A stretch of 64,000 nucleotides of DNA from Glycine soja (taxonomy: Eukaryota > Streptophyta > Magnoliopsida > Fabales > Fabaceae). The notes beneath the pieces were generated by a model that saw only the letters and a list, made by a program, of their open reading frames with translations, did no database searches and was not told where the DNA came from. Location of the stretch: NCBI RefSeq assembly GCF_004193775.1, contig NC_041007.1, forward strand, positions 29,414,850 through 29,478,849, read 5' to 3'. This document shows, in pieces, positions 26,567-38,678 of this stretch. Each line of letters starts with the position of its first letter. Within the stretch, counting starts at the first letter, position 1. Position numbers and translations under genes: made by a program.

Positions 26567-27758
26567 TGAAATTCTGATACTGGGGACAGATGTCGTACCG
26601 GATGTCACGACATCACGCTTCAGAACATGCAGATTATATTTGGGAGTATGAACAGATTAAACAAGTAAATAACACAAGAGAATTGTTAACCCAGTTCGGT
26701 GCAACCTCACCTACATCTGGGGGCTACCAAGCCAGGGAGGAAATCCACTAAAATAGTGTTAGTTCAAGGTCTAACAGCCACTGTTTACAACCTTCTCACC
26801 TAACCACTACCCGTGCGACCTCTACCTAAGAGCCACTCTTAGATATGAGAACCCCGCTCACTCCCTCTCAATCACACTCCCGTGTTTACAATCAAATCAA
26901 AAACACACCAGAGATTGCTCTCTGAACAATAGAGATCAACTCCACACACTAGAGATCAACTCTACACACTAGAGATCAACTCTACACACTCAGGTCCAAC
27001 ACTTGATGTTAGGGTACCATCAAGGTGGCTCACAAAAGACTCAAGTCCCAAAACTCACAAAATAACTCTTCAATCCCGGACTTGGTAGTAAACTCGTGCA
27101 GCCTTCATGTTTATATAGCAGTGTGCGTTTCTGGGCTGCAACTACTTGTGCTGGATGAGATCTATCTTCTTCCTGAAAATCTGCACTTAAAGATCTAAAA
27201 GATACAGTTTGATCTTTTAGTTTTTATCTTTAATCTTTAATCCCTGAACGAACTCTTCTACTTTGAAATTCGAACTTTAATTATCTTTTAATTCGTTCCT
27301 AAAGATAGATCGTCTAATCTGTTGCTAACTGCACAATAATCTGTTAAAGATATAACAGATTTATATGTCCAGTATTTTCGGGCCAGATGTCCTGGACATC
27401 GTATCCGACATCGTGGATCCTGCAGCTTCAATGCTTTTAGCAACTCCAGTATTTTCGGGCAGGATGTCCTGGACATTGTATCCGACATCGTGGATCCTGC
27501 AGCTTCAATGCTTTTAGCAATTCCAGTATTTTCAGGCAGGATGTCCTGGACATTGTATCCGACATCGTGATTCCTGCAGCTTCAATTCTTCATTTGACAT
27601 TTCATCTTGCCTTGTGCATTGTGCAGCCCGATCTTATTCTTTGACATAACGTTGGACATCATGTGCAGCAACTCCAGCTTTCCTTCATTGTCTAAGTGCT
27701 TATGTTTTAACAAAATCTTAGCCAATCTTTTAAAACTCAGTAGAGCTAAGCACTAACA
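26567..27758 (-). repeat. 3' LTR of the SIRE1-type element (1,192 bp)
   Basis: Minus-strand TGTTAGTGCTTAGC to CAGTATCAGAATTTCA. Contains three tandem units of about 77-84 bp (27368-27600), each with GATGTC...GACATC dyads, and a 20-bp AGAGATCAACTCTACACACT repeat in three copies (26930-26990). Identical by eye to 35243-36434. Confidence 0.92.
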
Positions 27759-28408
27759 ATCTCCCCCTTTGGCAAATTTTGTCTAAAACATACTTAGACA
27801 CTTCCTGAGTAGGTACGAGCAGTTATGCAAGTGGGATCAGCAACTTTCATTATCAGAGTAATCAAGCACAGCGGAATCTGTAGTTTAGACAAGTTGCAAG
27901 TCGTTTCCAGGATGTCAAGACATCTCACGTGACATCAGCTTTCTGCTCCCCCTGTCTTCATGCTCTTACTGCAGCATCTTCTATCAGCTACTAGTCTTTT
28001 CCAGGATGTCGAGACATCTCATGTGACATCAGCTTTTTGCTCCCCCTGTCTTCATGCTCTTACTGCAGCATCTTCTATCAGCTACTAGTAGCTTACATCA
28101 GTCATCATCAGCAGCAGTCTCCCCCTCAAAGTCATATACATACAACTCCCCCTCAAAATCATGAATCATGCATACATCGTATCCTACTGCCATACATCGT
28201 ATCAATCATGCATGCATACATCGTATCCTACTTCAAAATCATGCATAATACATACATACTACTACTCCCCCTTTTTAGACATAAATTTGGCAAAAGTAGA
28301 ATGCATGAAATTAATGTGCAAATATTACAGACCAATAACAATCTATTGTTCAAAGGGACATGCCCTTATAGCTAGTAAAAGTAAAAGGCAAAAGTAAAGG
28401 TCTGATGG
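27759..28408 (-). other. 3' untranslated region with multiple polypurine tracts
   Basis: The tract abutting the LTR reads CCAAAGGGGGAGAT on the minus strand (27759-27772). Further GGGGGAG runs lie at about 27948, 28040, 28119, 28147 and 28265. Multiple tracts are a known Sirevirus trait. Two copies of the GATGTC dyad module lie at 27911-27936 and 28005-28030. The plus-strand open frames here (28037-28397) are shadows. Confidence 0.8.
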
Positions 28409-29503
28409 TCATGGGGTGGCTTCAGAATCATCATCTGATTCAGTATCCTCTGCTGCATCTTCCTCTTCCTCAGCAGCTTCTTCTTCTTCCTCGGCTGCTT
28501 CTACCTCTTCCTCAGCTGCTTCATCTTCTTGCTCAGCTGCTTCTCCATCATCAATGCCACTTTCTGAGAGCCTTTTGATCAGCCGTTCCAGCTCCATCTT
28601 CTTCTCTGTGGTGGCTTTGATGGTTGCTTCCAGCACCTTGCATGTGTCCTTGAGTTCAGCAATCAGAGCATCCTTGGACACAGCACCTGAAGCAGCAGCT
28701 TTCCCTGATGTCGAGACAATGTCTGGGACATGTGTCCCCTCAAACAATTTGTAATGCAGGGATAAAGGAGATTCTCTCTTCATCACAGAGTCAGTGTAGT
28801 TTAAAATATTGGGATGTTGACTTAACATAATGCCACACAATACAGTTGGGAAGGCAATGGGTAATTTGACAGCAAATGATTCTGAATGCTTAACAGTTTG
28901 ATCAAAAATATAGTTTCCAAAATTAAATTTGGACTTGGTTCCAACAGCATACAGAAATTTACCCAAACCTGTGGCAACAGTGGAAGTATGATTGGTGGGT
29001 ACCCAGTTTGCAGCTCCAATCCTGTGCAGGATTGCATATTTCACACTAAGCTTCCCTGCAGACAGCTTCCCTTTCTTTGGCCAATGCTGGACTTGTTTGG
29101 CAGTGATTTCCTTGGCAATTTGATGTTCAGAGACAGCAATATCGACCACTCCATCTGTTGGTCTGTCCAGGTATTTGTTGATCACAGCAGGGGAGAATCT
29201 AACACATTTTCCTCTGACAAACACTCTTTGATACTCATCACTCTTTCTGTTTGTTATGTCAGAGGGAATGTTGACAATGAATTCCCTTACTAGACTTTCA
29301 TAGCAATCTCCCAACTTGGTGACAGTCTTCAGCAGTCCAGCAGCCGTGATGAGGTCCATGATCTCCTTGCAATCCAAGGCAGCTCTTCCCAGTTCTCTTT
29401 CCAAGGCAAGTCTGCGTTGATACACGAATTTCCACCTTTCAGCATTGCCAATGGAGTGGAATGAGATGTTGTCCAATGGTGCATCAGGGACATTACCAGG
29501 CAC
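28409..29503 (-). CDS. SIRE1 env-like protein, C-terminal frame
   Basis: 364 codons in a frame shifted relative to the N-terminal part. The central part holds KYAILHRIGAANWVPTNHTS and a following helical region that resemble the accessory proteins of the Calypso-like and Ogre-like elements in this window. Next comes a predicted coiled coil (about residues 280-315, ALIAELKDTCKVLEATIKAT), then a Glu/Ala-rich acidic tail. In SIRE1 this region belongs to the env-like ORF downstream of pol. An identical copy lies at 37085-38179. The antisense Ser-rich frame is a shadow. Confidence 0.75.
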   Translation of the reverse strand: MPGNVPDAPLDNISFHSIGNAERWKFVYQRRLALERELGRAALDCKEIMDLITAAGLLKTVTKLGDCYESLVREFIVNIPSDITNRKSDEYQRVFVRGKCVRFSPAVINKYLDRPTDGVVDIAVSEHQIAKEITAKQVQHWPKKGKLSAGKLSVKYAILHRIGAANWVPTNHTSTVATGLGKFLYAVGTKSKFNFGNYIFDQTVKHSESFAVKLPIAFPTVLCGIMLSQHPNILNYTDSVMKRESPLSLHYKLFEGTHVPDIVSTSGKAAASGAVSKDALIAELKDTCKVLEATIKATTEKKMELERLIKRLSESGIDDGEAAEQEDEAAEEEVEAAEEEEEAAEEEEDAAEDTESDDDSEATP

Positions 29504-30321
29504 CTTCTCCCAGATTTCTTGGCCCTCTTTGATGTCGAGACATCTAGTTCGACATCATCATCAGATGAGGAAATTTCTTTCCTCTTCTTGGAGGGGACTG
29601 CAACTTTGCTCCATCTGGATGTGGTAGGAGTGATTGGAGTGCTCTTTTTCTGTGCCATAGTTTTGATTCGTCCAGACCTCTTAACGGGGGTTTTCCCTTT
29701 TCTGCTTTGTAACCTTTCTGCAATGCCAGGTGCCAACCTGTTGGCAATGGGTTCCTCATCAGATTCTACTTCTTCAAGGTCAATGAGGTCACCTGGAGCA
29801 GGTTCTGGTGCCCGTGGTGCAGGGGTCTCCTCTGAGGCTTGATCCTCTTCTTCTGTTGATTCCTCTTCACTGGGTGAAGGGAGGGCTTCAGCATTTGGAG
29901 CGGAAGATGTTGGAACATCTTTATCAACATCAGGAACAGCAACATCTGGGGTGGAAGATGTTGGAACATCTTTCTCAGCATCAGGAACAGAGGCGTCTTT
30001 CAAAATGCTACTCACAATACTGCGGATCTTCTTATCCATCTCCGGGTCTACTTCCCTAGGACTTGTTGCAATGCTAGGGTTTTCAGAAATCTTCACTCCC
30101 TGTTGTCGTTTGGGAACCAGTTTTTCAGGAACAGGGGCTTGACCAGGAATCATCTGTATGGGCTGGATATTGAATTCAGGTCGTTCCTGGTTTGATGGTG
30201 CAGAGGGTGAACCAGGAGCTGAAGTTTCTTTTGGTGAGGTAGCCATGGAGAAGCAGAGCGTTTGGAATGATTTCGTAAATCTCAGAGAGCTGTTAGGGAA
30301 TGCTGAAAACGAGATTACCAC
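29329..30321 (-). CDS. SIRE1 env-like protein, N-terminal frame
   Basis: This frame is continuous with gag-pol across the UAG at 30453-30451. The first ATG in it is at 30246 (MATSPKETSAPGSPSAPSNQ). The chain is Pro/Ser/Glu-rich, with two DVPTS repeats and a basic stretch (SKRAKK) before it runs out of frame near 29540 and stops at 29329. The downstream frame (28409-29503) carries the rest, so a shift separates the two. I do not see a convincing signal peptide in the part shown. The envelope role is inferred from SIRE1 literature, not from a fusion-protein motif. Confidence 0.7.
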   Translation of the reverse strand: MVISFSAFPNSSLRFTKSFQTLCFSMATSPKETSAPGSPSAPSNQERPEFNIQPIQMIPGQAPVPEKLVPKRQQGVKISENPSIATSPREVDPEMDKKIRSIVSSILKDASVPDAEKDVPTSSTPDVAVPDVDKDVPTSSAPNAEALPSPSEEESTEEEDQASEETPAPRAPEPAPGDLIDLEEVESDEEPIANRLAPGIAERLQSRKGKTPVKRSGRIKTMAQKKSTPITPTTSRWSKVAVPSKKRKEISSSDDDVELDVSTSKRAKKSGRRCLVMSLMHHWTTSHSTPLAMLKGGNSCINADLPWKENWEELPWIARRSWTSSRLLDC

Positions 30322-30444
30322 GAAAATATAAGTTTGAATGAGGAATGTAGAGGGGCGTGTGAAGCAACGGTCGAATTTGTTTTGGCTTTGTAGTGAACGT
30401 GCTATTAATGTTAAGTGAGACGTTTGAGCACGTTCAGATAGCAG

Positions 30445-30453
30445 TAGCTGCTA
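30445..30453 (-). promoter_or_regulatory. UAG stop with CARYYA readthrough context
   Basis: The gag-pol stop is TAG followed by CAGCTA, an exact match to UAG-CARYYA, the tobamovirus-type leaky context. The frame stays open for 44 codons to 30321 and on into the env-like ORF. Stop-codon suppression of this kind has been reported for SIRE1. Confidence 0.85.
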
Positions 30454-33400
30454 TAATTCCTCTAGCAGACAAATGCCCAGCTTGCCCCTCAGTTTTTCAA
30501 ACTGATTTGCATCCAATGCCTTTGTGAAAATATCTGCTATTTGTTCCTCAGTGTCAACATGCTCCAGTGTGATAACTTTATCATCAACAAGCTCTCTGAT
30601 ATAGTGATGTCTAATGTCAATGTGCTTGGTTCTGCTGTGTTGCACAGGATTTTTAGAAATATTAATAGCACTCAAGTTGTCACAGTATAATGTCATGACA
30701 TCTTGTTCGACATTGTACTCCTTGAGCATCTGCTTCATCCAAACTAGTTGTGAACAGCTGCTTCCTGCTGCAATATACTCGGCTTCTGCAGTAGATAGGG
30801 ACACACAGTTCTGCTTCTTGCTGAACCATGAAATAAGATTGTCGCCCAGATAGAAGCATCCACCAGAAGTGCTTTTTCTGTCATCTGCACTTCCAGCCCA
30901 ATCAGCATCACAATACCCAACCAGCATTGAATCTGAACAATGACAGTACATAATCCCATAGTCACTGGTGCCATTTACATATTTCAGAATTCTCTTTACT
31001 TGAGTCAAGTGACTTATCTTAGGATTGGCTTGATATCTTGCACAAACACCTACTGCATAGGTGATGTCGGGTCTGCTAGCTGTTAAATATAGTAAGCTCC
31101 CAATCATGCTTCTGTACAGACTTTGATCAACACTGGTGCCAGCTTCATCTTTTGACAGCTTCAAGTGAGTAGGTGCAGGTGTTCTTTTATGGCTGGCATT
31201 CTCCATCCCAAACTTCTTGACAATGTTCTTTGCATACTTGCTTTGTGAGAGAAATATGGAGTCTTCCATCTGCTTCACTTGAAGTCCCAGAAAATAAGTC
31301 AGCTCTCCAACAAGACTCATCTCAAATTCAGATTGCATCTGTTGAACAAAATGTCGAAGCATCTCATTCGACATCCCTCCAAACACAATGTCATCAACAT
31401 ATATCTGTGCTATCATCAAGTTTTCAGCATCTTGCTTGACAAAGAGAGTCTTGTCAATTCCTCCCTTCCTATACCCTTGCTGAGTAAGGAACTCTGTTAG
31501 CCTTTCATACCAAGCTCTTGGAGCTTGCTTCAATCCATAGAGAGCCTTCTTGAGCCTGTATACATGATCTGGATGAGTTGGATCTACAAATCCCTTTGGC
31601 TGCTCCACGTAGGCTTCTTCATTCAGGTATCCATTCAGAAACGCGCTCTTCACATCCATCTGGTACAGCTTGAATTTGAGGATGCAAGCTACACCAAGTA
31701 ACAATCTGATGGATTCAAGTCTAGCAACAGGAGCGAAAGTTTCATCAAAGTCTACACCTTCAATCTGAGTGTAGCCTTGAGCAACAAGTCTGGCCTTGTT
31801 TCTGGTTATAACACCTTCTTCATTGGTTTTGTTCTTGAAGATCCACTTGGTGCCAATCACATTAGTTCCCTCGGGTCTCGGAACTAGCTCCCAGACTTCA
31901 TTCCTTTTGAATTGCTCCAATTCTTCTTGCATAGCATTGATCCAGAACTCATCAGTCAGTGCCTCTTTCACATTCTTGGGCTCAATTTTGGAGACAAAAC
32001 ATGAGTTGGAGACAATCTCAATCTCCCTTGATCTTGTAGTGACTCCTCTGTTTGGATCTCCTATAATCAGCTCCTTGGGGTGCATCTTCTGGATTCTAAT
32101 GGAGGGTCTCTTGTCAGGTTGGTTGATGTTTGATTCATCTGTAGCAGAATCAGAGTTTTCTGCATTTTCTCCACTTTTAGCTGCATCTGCTACATTGTCT
32201 CCCGATGTTCTGACATCTTCTTCGACATCATTCTTTCTTGCTGGAGTTAGATCATCAACAACCACATTGATGGATTCCATCACAGTTCTGGTTCTGGAAT
32301 TGAATACTCTATATGCTCTGCTGTTTGTAGAGTATCCCAGGAATATTCCTGCATCACTCTTGGGATCCATCTTTCTCCTTTGCTCTCTATCTGCCAAAAT
32401 GTAACATGGACTTCCAAAGATGTGGAAGTGCTTGACAGTTGGCTTCCTCCCTTTCCAGATTTCATACAGTGTGGTTGGAGTCCCTCTTCTAAGTGTGACT
32501 CTGTTGTGGATGTAGCATGCTGTGTTCATGGCTTCAGTCCAGAGATTATAGGGAAGTTCTTTGGCATGAAGCATGACCCTAGCAGCCTCTTGCAAAGTCC
32601 TGTTTTTCCTTTCAACTATGCCATTCTGTTGTGGTGTAATGGCTGCAGAGAACTCATGAGTGATGCCTTCAGATGTGCAGAATTCAGTAAACTTGCTGTT
32701 TTCAAACTCTCTGCCATGGTCACTCCTGATTCTCTTGATCACACAGTCTTTTTCTCTTTGAAGTCTTAGACTCAACTCCTTGAATACTTCAAAGGTGTCT
32801 GATTTTTCTCTGATAAAGTTGACCCAGGTAAATCTAGAGAAATCATCCACAACAACATAGGCATACCTTTTTCCTCCAAGGCTTTCAACTTGCATAGGCC
32901 CCATCAAGTCCATGTGAAGTAGTTCCAGCACCCTGGAAGTGGTCTGATGTTGAAGCTTCTGGTGGGACATCTTGACTTGCTTTCCAATCTGACATTCACC
33001 ACAGATTCTGCCTTCTTCTATTTTCAGATTGGGGATGCCTCTAACAGCACCTTTGTCAATGATTTTCTTCATACCTCTTAGGTGCAGATGTCCAAATCTT
33101 TGATGCCATATTTTGACTTCATCTTCTTTGGAGGATAGACATGTGGAGGAGTAACTGGTTTCTTGAGGTGTCCATAGGTAACAGTTGTCCTTTGACCTGC
33201 TGCCCTTCATTAGGACATCACTCTTCTCATTTGTCACCAAGCATTCTGACTTTGTGAAGTTTACATTGAATCCTTCATCACACAACTGACTGATGCTGAT
33301 CAGGTTTGCAGTCAGTCCCTTCACCAGCAGTACTTTGTTCAGACTAGGAAGTCCATCATGAACTAGCTTTCCCATTCCAATGATCTTTCCTTTAGAGCCA

Positions 33401-35184
33401 TCTCCAAATGTCACATAGCTAGTGGAGCAGGGCTCAATGTTCACCAGGAATTCTTTAACTCCTGTCATGTGTCTGGAACAGCCGCTATCTAGGTACCAAT
33501 CTTCCTTAGCTGATGCTCTAAGTGAAGTATGAACAACAAGACTAACAGTCTTGTGTTTTGGAACCCACACCATCTTCCTTCCGCTGTTGCTGCTTTGAGT
33601 TCCATGATGTGGATGGCCATGTAAATGATAGCAAAAGGGCTTTATGTGACCATACTTGCCACAGTAGTGACACCTCCGCTTCTTTCTTTTGCTCTTTTTC
33701 TGCTGCGTTCCAGGATGTCGAGACTGATGTTGTGACATCGTGGCTCCAGTGCTGTTTTTGGCAGGAACAAATTCTGTCATGGTTGTTCTGCCAGCAGACT
33801 TATGATTGAATCCAAGTCCTCTCTGGTTTCCAACATTCTTCCCAAGCTGTAGCACCTCATCAAGCATATCTGAGCCTTTATTCAGCATCTTTATTGATTT
33901 GGTCATGTTTTCCAGTTTAGAGTTCAGAAAACCGACTTCTCCTTTAAGCTCAGAGATCTCCTCTTCATGTGCCTCCTTCTCAGCCTCCAGATTTGCAATG
34001 ACCTTCTTCAGTTGTGCTTCTTGCTGAAGAATCTTCTCACTTTTGATGCATAGTTCTCTATAGGATGTAGCAAGCTCATCAAAAGTGATTTCACTGTCTG
34101 TATCACTTGAATCTTCAGCAGATTCAAATCTCCCAGTGAGTGCATTCATATCTCTGTCAGAATCACTTTCTTGTTCACTCTCTGTATCATCAGATCGACA
34201 TACAGAAAGTCCTTTCCTCTGCTTCTTGAGATGAGTGGGACATTCGGCTTTGATGTGCCCATAGCCTTCACATCCATGGCATTGAACTCCTTTGCTGAGG
34301 CTGGACTTTTCATCTGACCTTTTCTGGTATTCACTTCCTTTCCTGATGTCGAAAGAGATGTTCCGGACATGTGGTTTCTGCCTCCTGTCCATTCTGTTCA
34401 GCACTTTGTTGAACTGTTTTCCAAGGAACACAACTGCATCAGTCAGACCTTCATCAGTATCCAGGTCATACTCATCTTCTTCTCCTTCATCATTGGACAC
34501 GAAAGCCAGATTTTTGCTCTTCTTTTCAGCCCTATCCGAGAGTCCTAGCTCAAAGGTTTGAAGGGAACCAATGAGTTCATCTACTCTCATGTTGCAAATG
34601 TCTTGGGCCTCCTCTATTGCAGTGACTTTCATGTAAAATCTCTTAGGCAAGGATCTGAGGATCTTTCTCACCAGCTTTTCATCTGTCATCTTCTCTCCCA
34701 AGGCAGTGCAAGCATTGGCAATTTCAAGAATGTTCATGTGGAAGTCATGAATACACTCTTCCTCCTTCATCTTCAGATTTTCGAATTTTGTAGCCAATAG
34801 TTGCAATCTGGACATCTTCACTTTGGAGGTTCCTTCATGAGTGGTTTTCAGGATCTCCCATGCATCCTTGGCCACTGTGCATGTGTTGATCAGTCTGAAG
34901 ATATTCTTGTCAACTCCATTGAATAGAGCATTCAAAGCTTTGGAGTTTCCAAGTGCCAATTTGTCTTCTTCTTTTGTCCAGTCTTCTTCTGGCTTCAATT
35001 CATCAGTGGGCTTTCCTTCTGTGTCCAGCATCTTGGGATGTTCCCAGCCTTTGATGACAGCTTTCCAGGTTCTGCTATCCAGTGATTTGAGGAAGGCCAC
35101 CATCCTTGCTTTCCAGTATTCATAGTTGGTTCCATCCAGAATTGGTGGTCTGTTCACTGGTCCTCCTTCTTTCTCCATGTTCAT
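30451..35184 (-). CDS. SIRE1-type gag-pol polyprotein (1,577 aa), intact by eye
   Basis: Copia order. Gag (1-about 540) has CCHC knuckles at 302-315 and 505-518 with a coiled coil between them (about 365-445). Protease has [13 protein letters not shown] (DSG at 566-568). Integrase has an HHCC region (H694/H698, C728/C731) and catalytic D759, D822 and E858, with the D-35-E spacing. RT has [15 protein letters not shown] and YVDD at 1262-1265. RNase H has [23 protein letters not shown] and YCDNLSAI. The ATG at 35184 lies about 40 bp after the primer site. No stop or missing catalytic residue is seen, so the product may be active. Pol also contains five copies of a GATGTC dyad module. Confidence 0.95.
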
Positions 35185-35222
35185 CAGAATTTATCTCCCT
35201 AGATCTCACTCAGTGATTTCGA

Positions 35223-35240
35223 GTGCCCGCTCTGATACCA
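35223..35240 (-). other. Primer-binding site, initiator tRNA-Met
   Basis: Minus-strand TGGTATCAGAGCGGGCAC, two bases after the 5' LTR end. It is a perfect initiator-Met site. Confidence 0.93.
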
Positions 35241-35242
35241 AT

Positions 35243-36434
35243 TGAAATTCTGATACTGGGGACAGATGTCGTACCGGATGTCACGACATCACGCTTCAGA
35301 ACATGCAGATTATATTTGGGAGTATGAACAGATTAAACAAGTAAATAACACAAGAGAATTGTTAACCCAGTTCGGTGCAACCTCACCTACATCTGGGGGC
35401 TACCAAGCCAGGGAGGAAATCCACTAAAATAGTGTTAGTTCAAGGTCTAACAGCCACTGTTTACAACCTTCTCACCTAACCACTACCCGTGCGACCTCTA
35501 CCTAAGAGCCACTCTTAGATATGAGAACCCCGCTCACTCCCTCTCAATCACACTCCCGTGTTTACAATCAAATCAAAAACACACCAGAGATTGCTCTCTG
35601 AACAATAGAGATCAACTCCACACACTAGAGATCAACTCTACACACTAGAGATCAACTCTACACACTCAGGTCCAACACTTGATGTTAGGGTACCATCAAG
35701 GTGGCTCACAAAAGACTCAAGTCCCAAAACTCACAAAATAACTCTTCAATCCCGGACTTGGTAGTAAACTCGTGCAGCCTTCATGTTTATATAGCAGTGT
35801 GCGTTTCTGGGCTGCAACTACTTGTGCTGGATGAGATCTATCTTCTTCCTGAAAATCTGCACTTAAAGATCTAAAAGATACAGTTTGATCTTTTAGTTTT
35901 TATCTTTAATCTTTAATCCCTGAACGAACTCTTCTACTTTGAAATTCGAACTTTAATTATCTTTTAATTCGTTCCTAAAGATAGATCGTCTAATCTGTTG
36001 CTAACTGCACAATAATCTGTTAAAGATATAACAGATTTATATGTCCAGTATTTTCGGGCCAGATGTCCTGGACATCGTATCCGACATCGTGGATCCTGCA
36101 GCTTCAATGCTTTTAGCAACTCCAGTATTTTCGGGCAGGATGTCCTGGACATTGTATCCGACATCGTGGATCCTGCAGCTTCAATGCTTTTAGCAATTCC
36201 AGTATTTTCAGGCAGGATGTCCTGGACATTGTATCCGACATCGTGATTCCTGCAGCTTCAATTCTTCATTTGACATTTCATCTTGCCTTGTGCATTGTGC
36301 AGCCCGATCTTATTCTTTGACATAACGTTGGACATCATGTGCAGCAACTCCAGCTTTCCTTCATTGTCTAAGTGCTTATGTTTTAACAAAATCTTAGCCA
36401 ATCTTTTAAAACTCAGTAGAGCTAAGCACTAACA
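35243..36434 (-). repeat. 5' LTR of the SIRE1-type element (1,192 bp)
   Basis: Offset exactly 8,676 from 26567-27758, with no difference seen by eye. It also serves as the right-hand boundary of the partial second copy. Confidence 0.92.
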
Positions 36435-37084
36435 ATCTCCCCCTTTGGCAAATTTTGTCTAAAACATACTTAGACACTTCCTGAGCAGGTACGAGCAGTT
36501 ATGCAAGTGGGATCAGCAACTTTCATTATCAGAGTAATCAAGCACAGCGGAATCTGTAGTTTAGACAAGTTGCAAGTCGTTTCCAGGATGTCAAGACATC
36601 TCACGTGACATCAGCTTTCTGCTCCCCCTGTCTTCATGCTCTTACTGCAGCATCTTCTATCAGCTACTAGTCTTTTCCAGGATGTCGAGACATCTCATGT
36701 GACATCAGCTTTTTGCTCCCCCTGTCTTCATGCTCTTACTGCAGCATCTTCTATCAGCTACTAGTAGCTTACATCAGTCATCATCAGCAGCAGTCTCCCC
36801 CTCAAAGTCATATACATACAACTCCCCCTCAAAATCATGAATCATGCATACATCGTATCCTACTGCCATACATCGTATCAATCATGCATGCATACATCGT
36901 ATCCTACTTCAAAATCATGCATAATACATACATACTACTACTCCCCCTTTTTAGACATAAATTTGGCAAAAGTAGAATGCATGAAATTAATGTGCAAATA
37001 TTACAGACCAATAACAATCTATTGTTCAAAGGGACATGCCCTTATAGCTAGTAAAAGTAAAAGGCAAAAGTAAAGGTCTGATGG

Positions 37085-38179
37085 TCATGGGGTGGCTTCA
37101 GAATCATCATCTGATTCAGTATCCTCTGCTGCATCTTCCTCTTCCTCAGCAGCTTCTTCTTCTTCCTCGGCTGCTTCTACCTCTTCCTCAGCTGCTTCAT
37201 CTTCTTGCTCAGCTGCTTCTCCATCATCAATGCCACTTTCTGAGAGCCTTTTGATCAGCCGTTCCAGCTCCATCTTCTTCTCTGTGGTGGCTTTGATGGT
37301 TGCTTCCAGCACCTTGCATGTGTCCTTGAGTTCAGCAATCAGAGCATCCTTGGACACAGCACCTGAAGCAGCAGCTTTCCCTGATGTCGAGACAATGTCT
37401 GGGACATGTGTCCCCTCAAACAATTTGTAATGCAGGGATAAAGGAGATTCTCTCTTCATCACAGAGTCAGTGTAGTTTAAAATATTGGGATGTTGACTTA
37501 ACATAATGCCACACAATACAGTTGGGAAGGCAATGGGTAATTTGACAGCAAATGATTCTGAATGCTTAACAGTTTGATCAAAAATATAGTTTCCAAAATT
37601 AAATTTGGACTTGGTTCCAACAGCATACAGAAATTTACCCAAACCTGTGGCAACAGTGGAAGTATGATTGGTGGGTACCCAGTTTGCAGCTCCAATCCTG
37701 TGCAGGATTGCATATTTCACACTAAGCTTCCCTGCAGACAGCTTCCCTTTCTTTGGCCAATGCTGGACTTGTTTGGCAGTGATTTCCTTGGCAATTTGAT
37801 GTTCAGAGACAGCAATATCGACCACTCCATCTGTTGGTCTGTCCAGGTATTTGTTGATCACAGCAGGGGAGAATCTAACACATTTTCCTCTGACAAACAC
37901 TCTTTGATACTCATCACTCTTTCTGTTTGTTATGTCAGAGGGAATGTTGACAATGAATTCCCTTACTAGACTTTCATAGCAATCTCCCAACTTGGTGACA
38001 GTCTTCAGCAGTCCAGCAGCCGTGATGAGGTCCATGATCTCCTTGCAATCCAAGGCAGCTCTTCCCAGTTCTCTTTCCAAGGCAAGTCTGCGTTGATACA
38101 CGAATTTCCACCTTTCAGCATTGCCAATGGAGTGGAATGAGATGTTGTCCAATGGTGCATCAGGGACATTACCAGGCAC
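37085..38179 (-). CDS. SIRE1 env-like C-terminal frame, second copy
   Basis: Same 364-codon translation as 28409-29503. It has no upstream gag-pol in this partial copy, so expression is unlikely. Confidence 0.6.
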   Translation of the reverse strand: MPGNVPDAPLDNISFHSIGNAERWKFVYQRRLALERELGRAALDCKEIMDLITAAGLLKTVTKLGDCYESLVREFIVNIPSDITNRKSDEYQRVFVRGKCVRFSPAVINKYLDRPTDGVVDIAVSEHQIAKEITAKQVQHWPKKGKLSAGKLSVKYAILHRIGAANWVPTNHTSTVATGLGKFLYAVGTKSKFNFGNYIFDQTVKHSESFAVKLPIAFPTVLCGIMLSQHPNILNYTDSVMKRESPLSLHYKLFEGTHVPDIVSTSGKAAASGAVSKDALIAELKDTCKVLEATIKATTEKKMELERLIKRLSESGIDDGEAAEQEDEAAEEEVEAAEEEEEAAEEEEDAAEDTESDDDSEATP

Positions 38180-38678
38180 CTTCTCCCAGATTTCTTGGCC
38201 CTCTTTGATGTCGAGACATCTAGTTCGACATCATCATCAGATGAGGAAATTTCTTTCCTCTTCTTGGAGGGGACTGCAACTTTGCTCCATCTGGATGTGG
38301 TAGGAGTGATTGGAGTGCTCTTTTTCTGTGCCATAGTTTTGATTCGTCCAGACCTCTTAACGGGGGTTTTCCCTTTTCTGCTTTGTAACCTTTCTGCAAT
38401 GCCAGGTGCCAACCTGTTGGCAATGGGTTCCTCATCAGATTCTACTTCTTCAAGGTCAATGAGGTCACCTGGAGCAGGTTCTGGTGCCCGTGGTGCAGGG
38501 GTCTCCTCTGAGGCTTGATCCTCTTCTTCTGTTGATTCCTCTTCACTGGGTGAAGGGAGGGCTTCAGCATTTGGAGCGGAAGATGTTGGAACATCTTTAT
38601 CAACATCAGGAACAGCAACATCTGGGGTGGAAGATGTTGGAACATCTTTCTCAGCATCAGGAACAGAGGCGTCTTTCA
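38005..38678 (-). pseudogene. SIRE1 env-like N-terminal frame, truncated second copy
   Basis: Matches 29329-30002 and is cut at the 38675-38678 junction. The start region and pol are missing. Confidence 0.75.

Follow-up and report, generated by a model that had tools for sequence, protein, structure and literature searches.

A 26-bp dyad module repeated through the long terminal repeat, linker and genes of a SIRE1-type retrotransposon of Glycine soja is constrained at the nucleotide level within the genes

A complete SIRE1-type retrotransposon, a member of the Sireviruses, lies on the minus strand of a 64,000-nucleotide stretch of Glycine soja DNA (contig NC_041007.1, positions 29,414,850 to 29,478,849; this whole stretch is termed the window, and positions are counted from its first nucleotide). 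The element carries 15 copies of a module, GATGTC-N2-GACATC-N6-GACATC, which is a dyad of the half-site GACATC with a gap of 2 (or 3) bp, followed by a third half-site 6 bp further on. The copies occupy the long terminal repeat (LTR), the adjoining non-coding linker and the open reading frames (ORFs) for gag, pol and an env-like protein, and inside the genes the half-sites are conserved as nucleotide sequence. We propose that the module probably forms a dispersed platform of double-stranded DNA for one sequence-specific nuclear protein which would support expression of the element. The copies are listed below, with mismatches counted over the 18 fixed bases and each copy taken in its best register; RT denotes reverse transcriptase.

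26589..26614, minus strand: N2 form, 0 mismatches; U5 end, 22 bp inside the LTR
27386..27412, plus strand: N3 form, 0 mismatches; U3 part of the LTR
27463..27489, plus strand: N3 form, 1 mismatch; LTR, unit 2 of a 77-bp tandem repeat
27540..27566, plus strand: N3 form, 1 mismatch; LTR, unit 3 of the 77-bp tandem repeat
27911..27936, plus strand: 0 mismatches; non-coding linker between env-like ORF and LTR
28005..28030, plus strand: 0 mismatches; non-coding linker
28707..28732, plus strand: 3 mismatches; env-like ORF, HVPDIVSTS
29531..29556, plus strand: 0 mismatches; env-like ORF, DVELDVSTS
29906..29931, plus strand: 3 mismatches; env-like ORF, DVDKDVPTS
29957..29982, plus strand: 4 mismatches; env-like ORF, DAEKDVPTS, 51-bp tandem duplicate of the 29906 copy
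30689..30714, plus strand: 2 mismatches; RNase H part of pol, NVEQDVMTL
31350..31375, plus strand: 3 mismatches; RT domain directly after YVDD, MSNEMLRH, other frame
32204..32229, plus strand: 1 mismatch; integrase-RT linker, DVEEDVRTS
33714..33739, minus strand: 1 mismatch (3 if read on the plus strand); C-terminal region of gag
34345..34371, minus strand: N3 form, 2 mismatches; gag, HVRNISFDI, third frame

An earlier note on this DNA had named these 15 places, and the module proved present at every one of them. Its statement that the copies carry few substitutions holds for 11 of the 15 (at most two mismatches) and is too generous for those at 28707, 29906, 31350 and 29957. As to location, the copy at 26589 and the three N3 copies near it are all inside the LTR, while those at 33714 and 34345 belong to the gag part of the ORF and not to pol, as had been assumed. 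The copy at 34345, described merely as looser, is in fact an N3 form in reverse orientation, which brings the number of N3 copies to four (27386, 27463, 27540 and 34345). Orientation is thus mixed: instead of a single reversed copy at 26589, three copies (26589, 33714 and 34345) run opposite to the remaining ones. Across the copies all three half-sites hold one sequence without covariation; spacers and flanks are mostly different from one site to the next. Nine copies reside inside ORFs, and six of these are read in one frame relative to the module, while at 31350, 33714 and 34345 other frames are used and the peptides are unrelated.

The number of copies is far above chance. At a threshold of at most three mismatches on both strands, the window yielded 19 module matches (overlapping minus-strand readings and copies in a second, truncated element at 35265-38607 included), against 0.05 expected from shuffled sequence. 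When pairs of half-sites with at most one mismatch each were counted, the geometries FR20, FR8 and RR12 were found 12, 10 and 10 times, respectively, where 0.25-0.36 were expected, and the one-base variants FR21 and FR9 occurred six and five times (0.22 and 0.49 expected). The codon-shuffled control that the earlier note had called for gave the same picture for the gag-pol ORF. It holds four modules at three mismatches or fewer, compared with a mean of 0.66 and a maximum of 3 in 1000 synonymous shuffles that keep the protein, and with a mean of 0.004 when codon order was shuffled. At a limit of four mismatches, five modules were present, a count reached by 0.5% of the synonymous shuffles. Note that this control is conservative: its mean is not near zero because peptides such as DVEEDVRTS already favour the motif.

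In the genome (1.01 Gb searched), the exact module is present in 5,703 copies and the reversed pattern in none. The spacing is equally strict. With the second gap left free between 0 and 30 bp, 5,748 exact matches were obtained, 5,703 of them with a gap of 6; with the first gap left free there were 6,496, of which 5,703 had a gap of 2, and the other gaps were 3 among the 100 matches listed. All 100 exact matches listed out of the 5,703 carry spacers of SIRE1 site types, as judged by eye, and all eight loci fetched agree there with the window element. Copies within genes are likewise abundant: 1,187 genomic sequences lie within three mismatches of the window sequence at the integrase-RT linker (32204) and 1,184 at the RT site (31350), with reversed controls of 0 in both cases. 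Among the matches listed and fetched, the module is concentrated in the SIRE1 family and rare elsewhere. None of 30 other copia RT loci (L030-L059; 3.7-kb fragments, LTRs unchecked, 41-51% identical in RT) contained it on either strand at three mismatches or fewer.

Nucleotide-level constraint was assessed by projecting 20 SIRE1 copies from contig 1, found via exact LTR, linker or env modules, onto the window (two of them, L021 and L028, cover it only in part). In these copies plus the window, mean pairwise diversity in the nine coding modules was 0.013 for the half-sites, 0.043 for the spacers and 0.044 for the flanks with the minus-strand sites in plus register, and the half-site value fell to 0.011 after register correction, so that half-sites are about four times less variable than their surroundings. 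The difference is found at each codon position: for positions 1, 2 and 3 we obtained 0.004, 0.012 and 0.018 in half-sites, 0.049, 0.028 and 0.065 in spacers and 0.040, 0.028 and 0.079 in flanks. For gag-pol alone, third positions showed a diversity of 0.003 against 0.060 expected (30 positions, P=1.5e-4). Mutations in plant transposons fall largely on methylated CG and CHG, few of which are present in the half-sites. A lower mutation rate was nevertheless rejected as the explanation, as the constraint persists when CG and CHG are excluded and sequence context is matched (half-sites 0.011 vs 0.041, P=1e-4; third positions 0.022 vs 0.069, P=0.005; gag-pol third positions 0.004 vs 0.056, P=0.002). 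The finding was replicated at 33714 with 20 copies from contig 2, chosen via an exact 32204 site 1.5 kb away, where half-sites had a diversity of 0.011 and flanks of 0.037. We also observed that, over 28409-35190, CG inside half-sites has a nucleotide diversity of 0 (11 positions), and flanking CG is the most variable class (0.14; 40 positions). The invariance of half-site CG could reflect either protection from methylation or selection.

The alignment of the sites across families, likewise proposed by the earlier note, revealed that two of the coding copies evolved in place. The RT site (MSNEMLRH) aligns without gaps in 115 of the 119 relatives covering it and the RNase H site (NVEQDVMTL) in 107 of 109, and these copies therefore arose by substitution and not by insertion. 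At the RT site the GGMS form is mostly confined to rows of at least about 75% identity. The RNase H peptide is old: the form GVKQDVMTL occurs beyond the legumes in a Rhodiola-labelled protein; a Lotus-labelled protein (P0070) has DVKQDVMTS at this site, which is fully compatible with the module.

Traces of the module are seen in the proteins of relatives, where the counts denote compatibility of a peptide with the module at the protein and not the DNA level, and related proteins are not independent. Among 152 pol and gag proteins (80,706 amino acids), 7 peptides were compatible with 0 mismatches and 14 with one, whereas shuffled proteins (807,060 amino acids) gave 0 and 3. Six of these 21 peptides belong to soybean-like rows and 15 to others. 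The protein of the integrase-RT region can hardly be aligned, and D-V-x-x-D-V-x-[T/P]-S is kept there in all five soybean-like rows and in 8 of 37 others (P0007, P0008, P0009, P0010, P0014, P0017, P0020 and P0041; Trifolium where named). Rows named Acer, Rhodiola, Prunus or Rubus are without it. In gag, the other-frame reading MSxxMSxH recurs upstream of the second CCHC in 4 of 32 relatives (P0248, P0250, P0254 and P0263), with a second copy in P0248 that differs by one residue, and the third reading, [H/N]VxxIxxDI, is kept in 9 of the 18 rows aligned at 34345. Compatible peptides thus sit at homologous places, in three reading frames, in some legume relatives. A set of 2.9 million viral contigs held one exact module match (L029:5364-5389), which is plausibly due to chance, and no relative of P0009.

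How can these observations be explained? Several features together point to an oligomeric protein that reads double-stranded DNA: the half-sites are constant while the spacers vary freely, the gaps are fixed, and copies occur in either orientation and in LTR, linker and genes alike. The putative binder would probably act as a dimer or higher oligomer. SIRE1 would have built up about 15 sites for it, in U3 and U5 of the LTR, the linker, the env-like gene, pol and gag, and the bound protein may cover the element over its full length and sustain its transcription, as an enhancer array, as a platform against silencing, or as both. As the sites have been retained, it should be the element that profits. 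The earlier note had suggested a dispersed cis-element in which nucleotide sequence and not peptide is conserved, and the fixed spacing, the conservation controlled for codon position and the peptide traces in several frames all support this suggestion. Cis-elements of LTR retrotransposons are usually sought in the LTRs; a site under selection at synonymous positions of gag, env, RT and RNase H would demonstrate that the control array of a transposon can reside within its genes, and three half-sites with gaps of 2 or 3 and 6 bp would be a precise probe for a protein on which plant Sireviruses depend.

Several points weigh against a platform for a single nuclear protein. Four of the nine coding copies have three or four mismatches, and the peptide trace in the integrase-RT linker is lacking in 29 of 42 rows, including the Trifolium-labelled P0013, P0016, P0025 and P0062. 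The effect is uneven from site to site, with local percentiles of 0.9% at 29531, 3% at 32204 and up to 26% at 29906, and no site apart from the first two is strong singly. The P values, which overstate the independence of copies that share ancestry and were in part selected, are to be taken as guides. Furthermore, the diversity counts drop inserted bases, which affects two sites in the env-like gene: that at 29531 has one extra base in 12 of the 20 copies, a subfamily in which it takes an N3-like form with one mismatch, and that at 28707 contains a 12-bp tandem duplication within the module in two (L025 and L027). With both sites omitted, the difference remained (0.014 vs 0.048, P<5e-5; third positions 0.023 vs 0.072, P=0.004), and first gaps of 2 and 3 bp may both be tolerated because the LTR copies use a gap of 3 as well. 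An AlphaFold2 model of the env-like part, built on an alignment of 20 sequences, reached a predicted local distance difference test score (pLDDT) of 34 and was useless. Finally, some modules can form short local RNA stems, with z-scores down to -2.36.

Such stems would suit an RNA-level signal, in which GAUGUC and GACAUC segments of the genomic RNA serve dimerisation, packaging or binding of Gag; the self-complementary 14-mers could pair between RNA molecules, and copies are present throughout the whole transcript. Local folding of 12 sites, however, gave inconsistent stabilities (z from -2.4 to +0.8), a loop of 2 nucleotides cannot close a hairpin, the third half-site would be left without a role, and half-sites that keep one sequence without covariation do not point to conserved pairing. 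The mixed orientation also fits double-stranded DNA better than a stranded RNA signal, and we regard the RNA explanation as unlikely. An even smaller likelihood attaches to a signal of host defence, with the palindromes as targets of small RNAs or repressors. Clusters of palindromic motifs in maize Sireviruses do attract small RNAs (PMC10760457), but the element would be expected to lose a target that harms it and not to keep it under constraint in genes, even though recognition by the host might still occur as a side effect.

If the peptide DVxxDVxTS had a function as a short linear motif, both in the polyprotein and in the env-like protein, the similarity of the DNA would simply follow. The shared frame of six coding copies, the occurrence of the RNase H peptide outside legumes and the 0.66 modules that survive synonymous shuffling are in line with this. 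On the other hand, third codon positions of the half-sites are conserved, the other-frame peptides recur in relatives, and the other-frame copies together with the non-coding ones in LTR and linker refute a peptide motif as the full explanation, which makes it very improbable. A small insert that spreads in the manner of gene-inserting palindromic elements, or gene conversion from the LTR, merits just as little credence. Tandem duplication certainly adds copies in variable regions, as seen for the 77-bp LTR triplet, the 51-bp pair at 29906 and 29957 and the 12-bp duplication at 28707. Yet the spacers and flanks are unlike between most sites, and the notion of a spreading module tolerated inside genes, raised in the earlier note, found no support at the two sites where it could be tested, RT and RNase H, which align without gaps as described above.

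The closest described structures are the repeated motif (RM) boxes, palindromes that lie in the LTR and upstream of ENV, were reported for 13 Sireviruses and have been suggested to play a role in regulation (PMC2829016). They have mostly a CGG-CCG core (12 of the 13 tabulated elements, Tnd-1 being the exception), their clusters define CpG islands, and classic copia elements lack them; two published elements have a few boxes at the start of ENV, and four Sireviruses without env bear LTR boxes as well (PMC2829016). In the tables of that paper, SIRE1-1 appears in the one for the polypurine tract (PPT) but is missing from the 13 box-bearing elements. The SIRE1 module shares with these boxes a palindromic dyad of family-specific sequence, the Sirevirus host, a possible regulatory role and a copy number of at least eight per element (15 in SIRE1, 11 of them with at most two mismatches in 18). 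RM boxes cluster in the upper half of the LTR, beginning 200-400 bp from the junction, which fits the N3 triplet at 192-372 bp from the LTR start, but one SIRE1 copy sits at the far U5 end. In contrast to the boxes, the SIRE1 module has a GATGTC-GACATC core without CGG-CCG and a third half-site always 6 bp further on, its linker copies (27911 and 28005) follow the env-like ORF instead of lying upstream of ENV, and constrained copies are present in gag, pol and env, whereas the boxes are reported from LTRs and linkers. Given the likeness and the three features that differ (core, position relative to ENV and non-coding location), we consider the module a variant of the RM-box kind in which the third half-site and the constrained copies within gag, pol and env are new. 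The earlier note knew of no description of the module. Within the literature searched, this holds for the sequence itself and for its copies in pol and gag, but palindromes in Sirevirus LTRs and linkers have been described (PMC2829016). The search returned no description of the six 14-mer variants or of the motif, and a soybean small-RNA paper in which the hexamers occur is silent on SIRE and retrotransposons in its main text. No transcription factor was assigned to GACATC: a resemblance to the TGTC cores of ARF, GRF or IDD-like factors was considered, but the bases after TGTC vary.

The nearest functional model for an array over a whole element is the VANC/VANDAL system of Arabidopsis, in which VANC proteins bind short motifs and cause loss of methylation throughout VANDAL elements (PMC5735166). 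There, too, a short motif is dense in one transposon family, rare elsewhere and spread by tandem repeats (PMC5735166). VANC is a demonstrated transposon-encoded, sequence-specific binder that acts over the whole element, whereas a binder of the SIRE1 module is putative. VANDAL motifs have one orientation and are mainly non-coding; the SIRE1 module occurs in both orientations and in coding as well as non-coding sequence.

A second Sirevirus family, found in the same genome with a distant Sirevirus-like protein as query and represented by the stretch L060, has a 12-bp palindromic box of its own, GTAATCGATTAC, with 12 perfect copies that form six doublets 20 or 21 bp apart.

L060:1926-2057: six copies of GTAATCGATTAC, upstream of the ENV-like ORF
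L060:2140-3396: ENV-like ORF with PF20167 domain
L060:4132-4327: six copies of GTAATCGATTAC, LTR region

This string is found at 100,301 places in the genome, its reverse at 109. Doublets with gaps of 0-30 bp number 40,358, of which 8,900 have a gap of 8, and 45 of the 50 doublets listed have a gap of 8 or 9, corresponding to a distance of 20 or 21 bp. None of the literature containing the box or its 10-mer was on soybean by title. The box is unrelated in sequence to the SIRE1 module, and unlike the latter it shows no excess in the approximate gag-pol part (one match at 3 mismatches, 2.2 expected). In the SIRE1 module, too, a distance of 20 or 21 bp, or roughly two helical turns, separates the outer half-sites, which is a parallel and not proof of a common mechanism.

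Both families also possess an env-like ORF with the Pfam domain PF20167 (Transposase_32) above cut-off (window 28409-29554, minus strand, in SIRE1), although the two are otherwise barely alike (22% identity, E=0.13). It is conceivable, albeit rather doubtful, that the env-like gene encodes not an envelope but a nuclear DNA-binding protein that recognises the dyad box of its own family, coats the element and blocks silencing. SIRE1 would then have spread its boxes into gag, pol and env in spite of protein-coding constraint, the coding sequence being rewritten as a binding array, and the system would be a retrotransposon counterpart of VANC. This idea draws on the pairing of very different PF20167 ORFs with different boxes in two families, on the basic stretches and long acidic tail of the SIRE1 protein and on the nuclear signal predicted for an Athila ORF with PF20167 (PMC11728184). 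The LTR boxes of Sireviruses that lack env (PMC2829016) count against it, as does the half-site itself, which seems stable across legumes and would fit a host factor equally well. With the module at hand, two questions become testable: the role of the RM boxes of Sireviruses and the purpose of the so-called envelope gene in plant retrotransposons.

The host element is organised as follows.

Complete SIRE1-type element, minus strand: LTR 26567-27758, PPT octamers from 27761, second LTR 35243-36434
26567..27758, minus strand: 3' LTR of the complete element, near-identical to the block 35243-36434, TG/CA ends
28409..29554, minus strand: second part of the env-like ORF, other frame, PF20167 domain and acidic tail
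29329..30450, minus strand: first part of the env-like ORF, no Pfam family
30451..35190, minus strand: gag-pol ORF, 1579 amino acids, gag, integrase and RVT_2 domains

The domain order gag_2, integrase and RVT_2, followed by the env-like ORFs directly adjacent to pol, is that of a copia element with an env-like ORF, as in Sireviruses. Six PPT octamers, AGGGGGAG, adjoin the LTR at 27761-28265, multiple copies near the 3' LTR being a Sirevirus trait, and the LTR edge shows the AT/TG attachment-site feature of Sireviruses, the terminal CA being followed by AT and then by CTCCCCCT. The env-like ORF is up to 97% identical to proteins of Glycine max and Glycine soja. At 28409-30450 the env-like gene is broken into two overlapping ORFs in different frames, and homologues of about 600 amino acids exist in Glycine. 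The region 26567-38678 comprises two tandem SIRE1 elements that have the LTR 35243-36434 in common; the second is truncated and 99.97% identical to the first over 3.4 kb.

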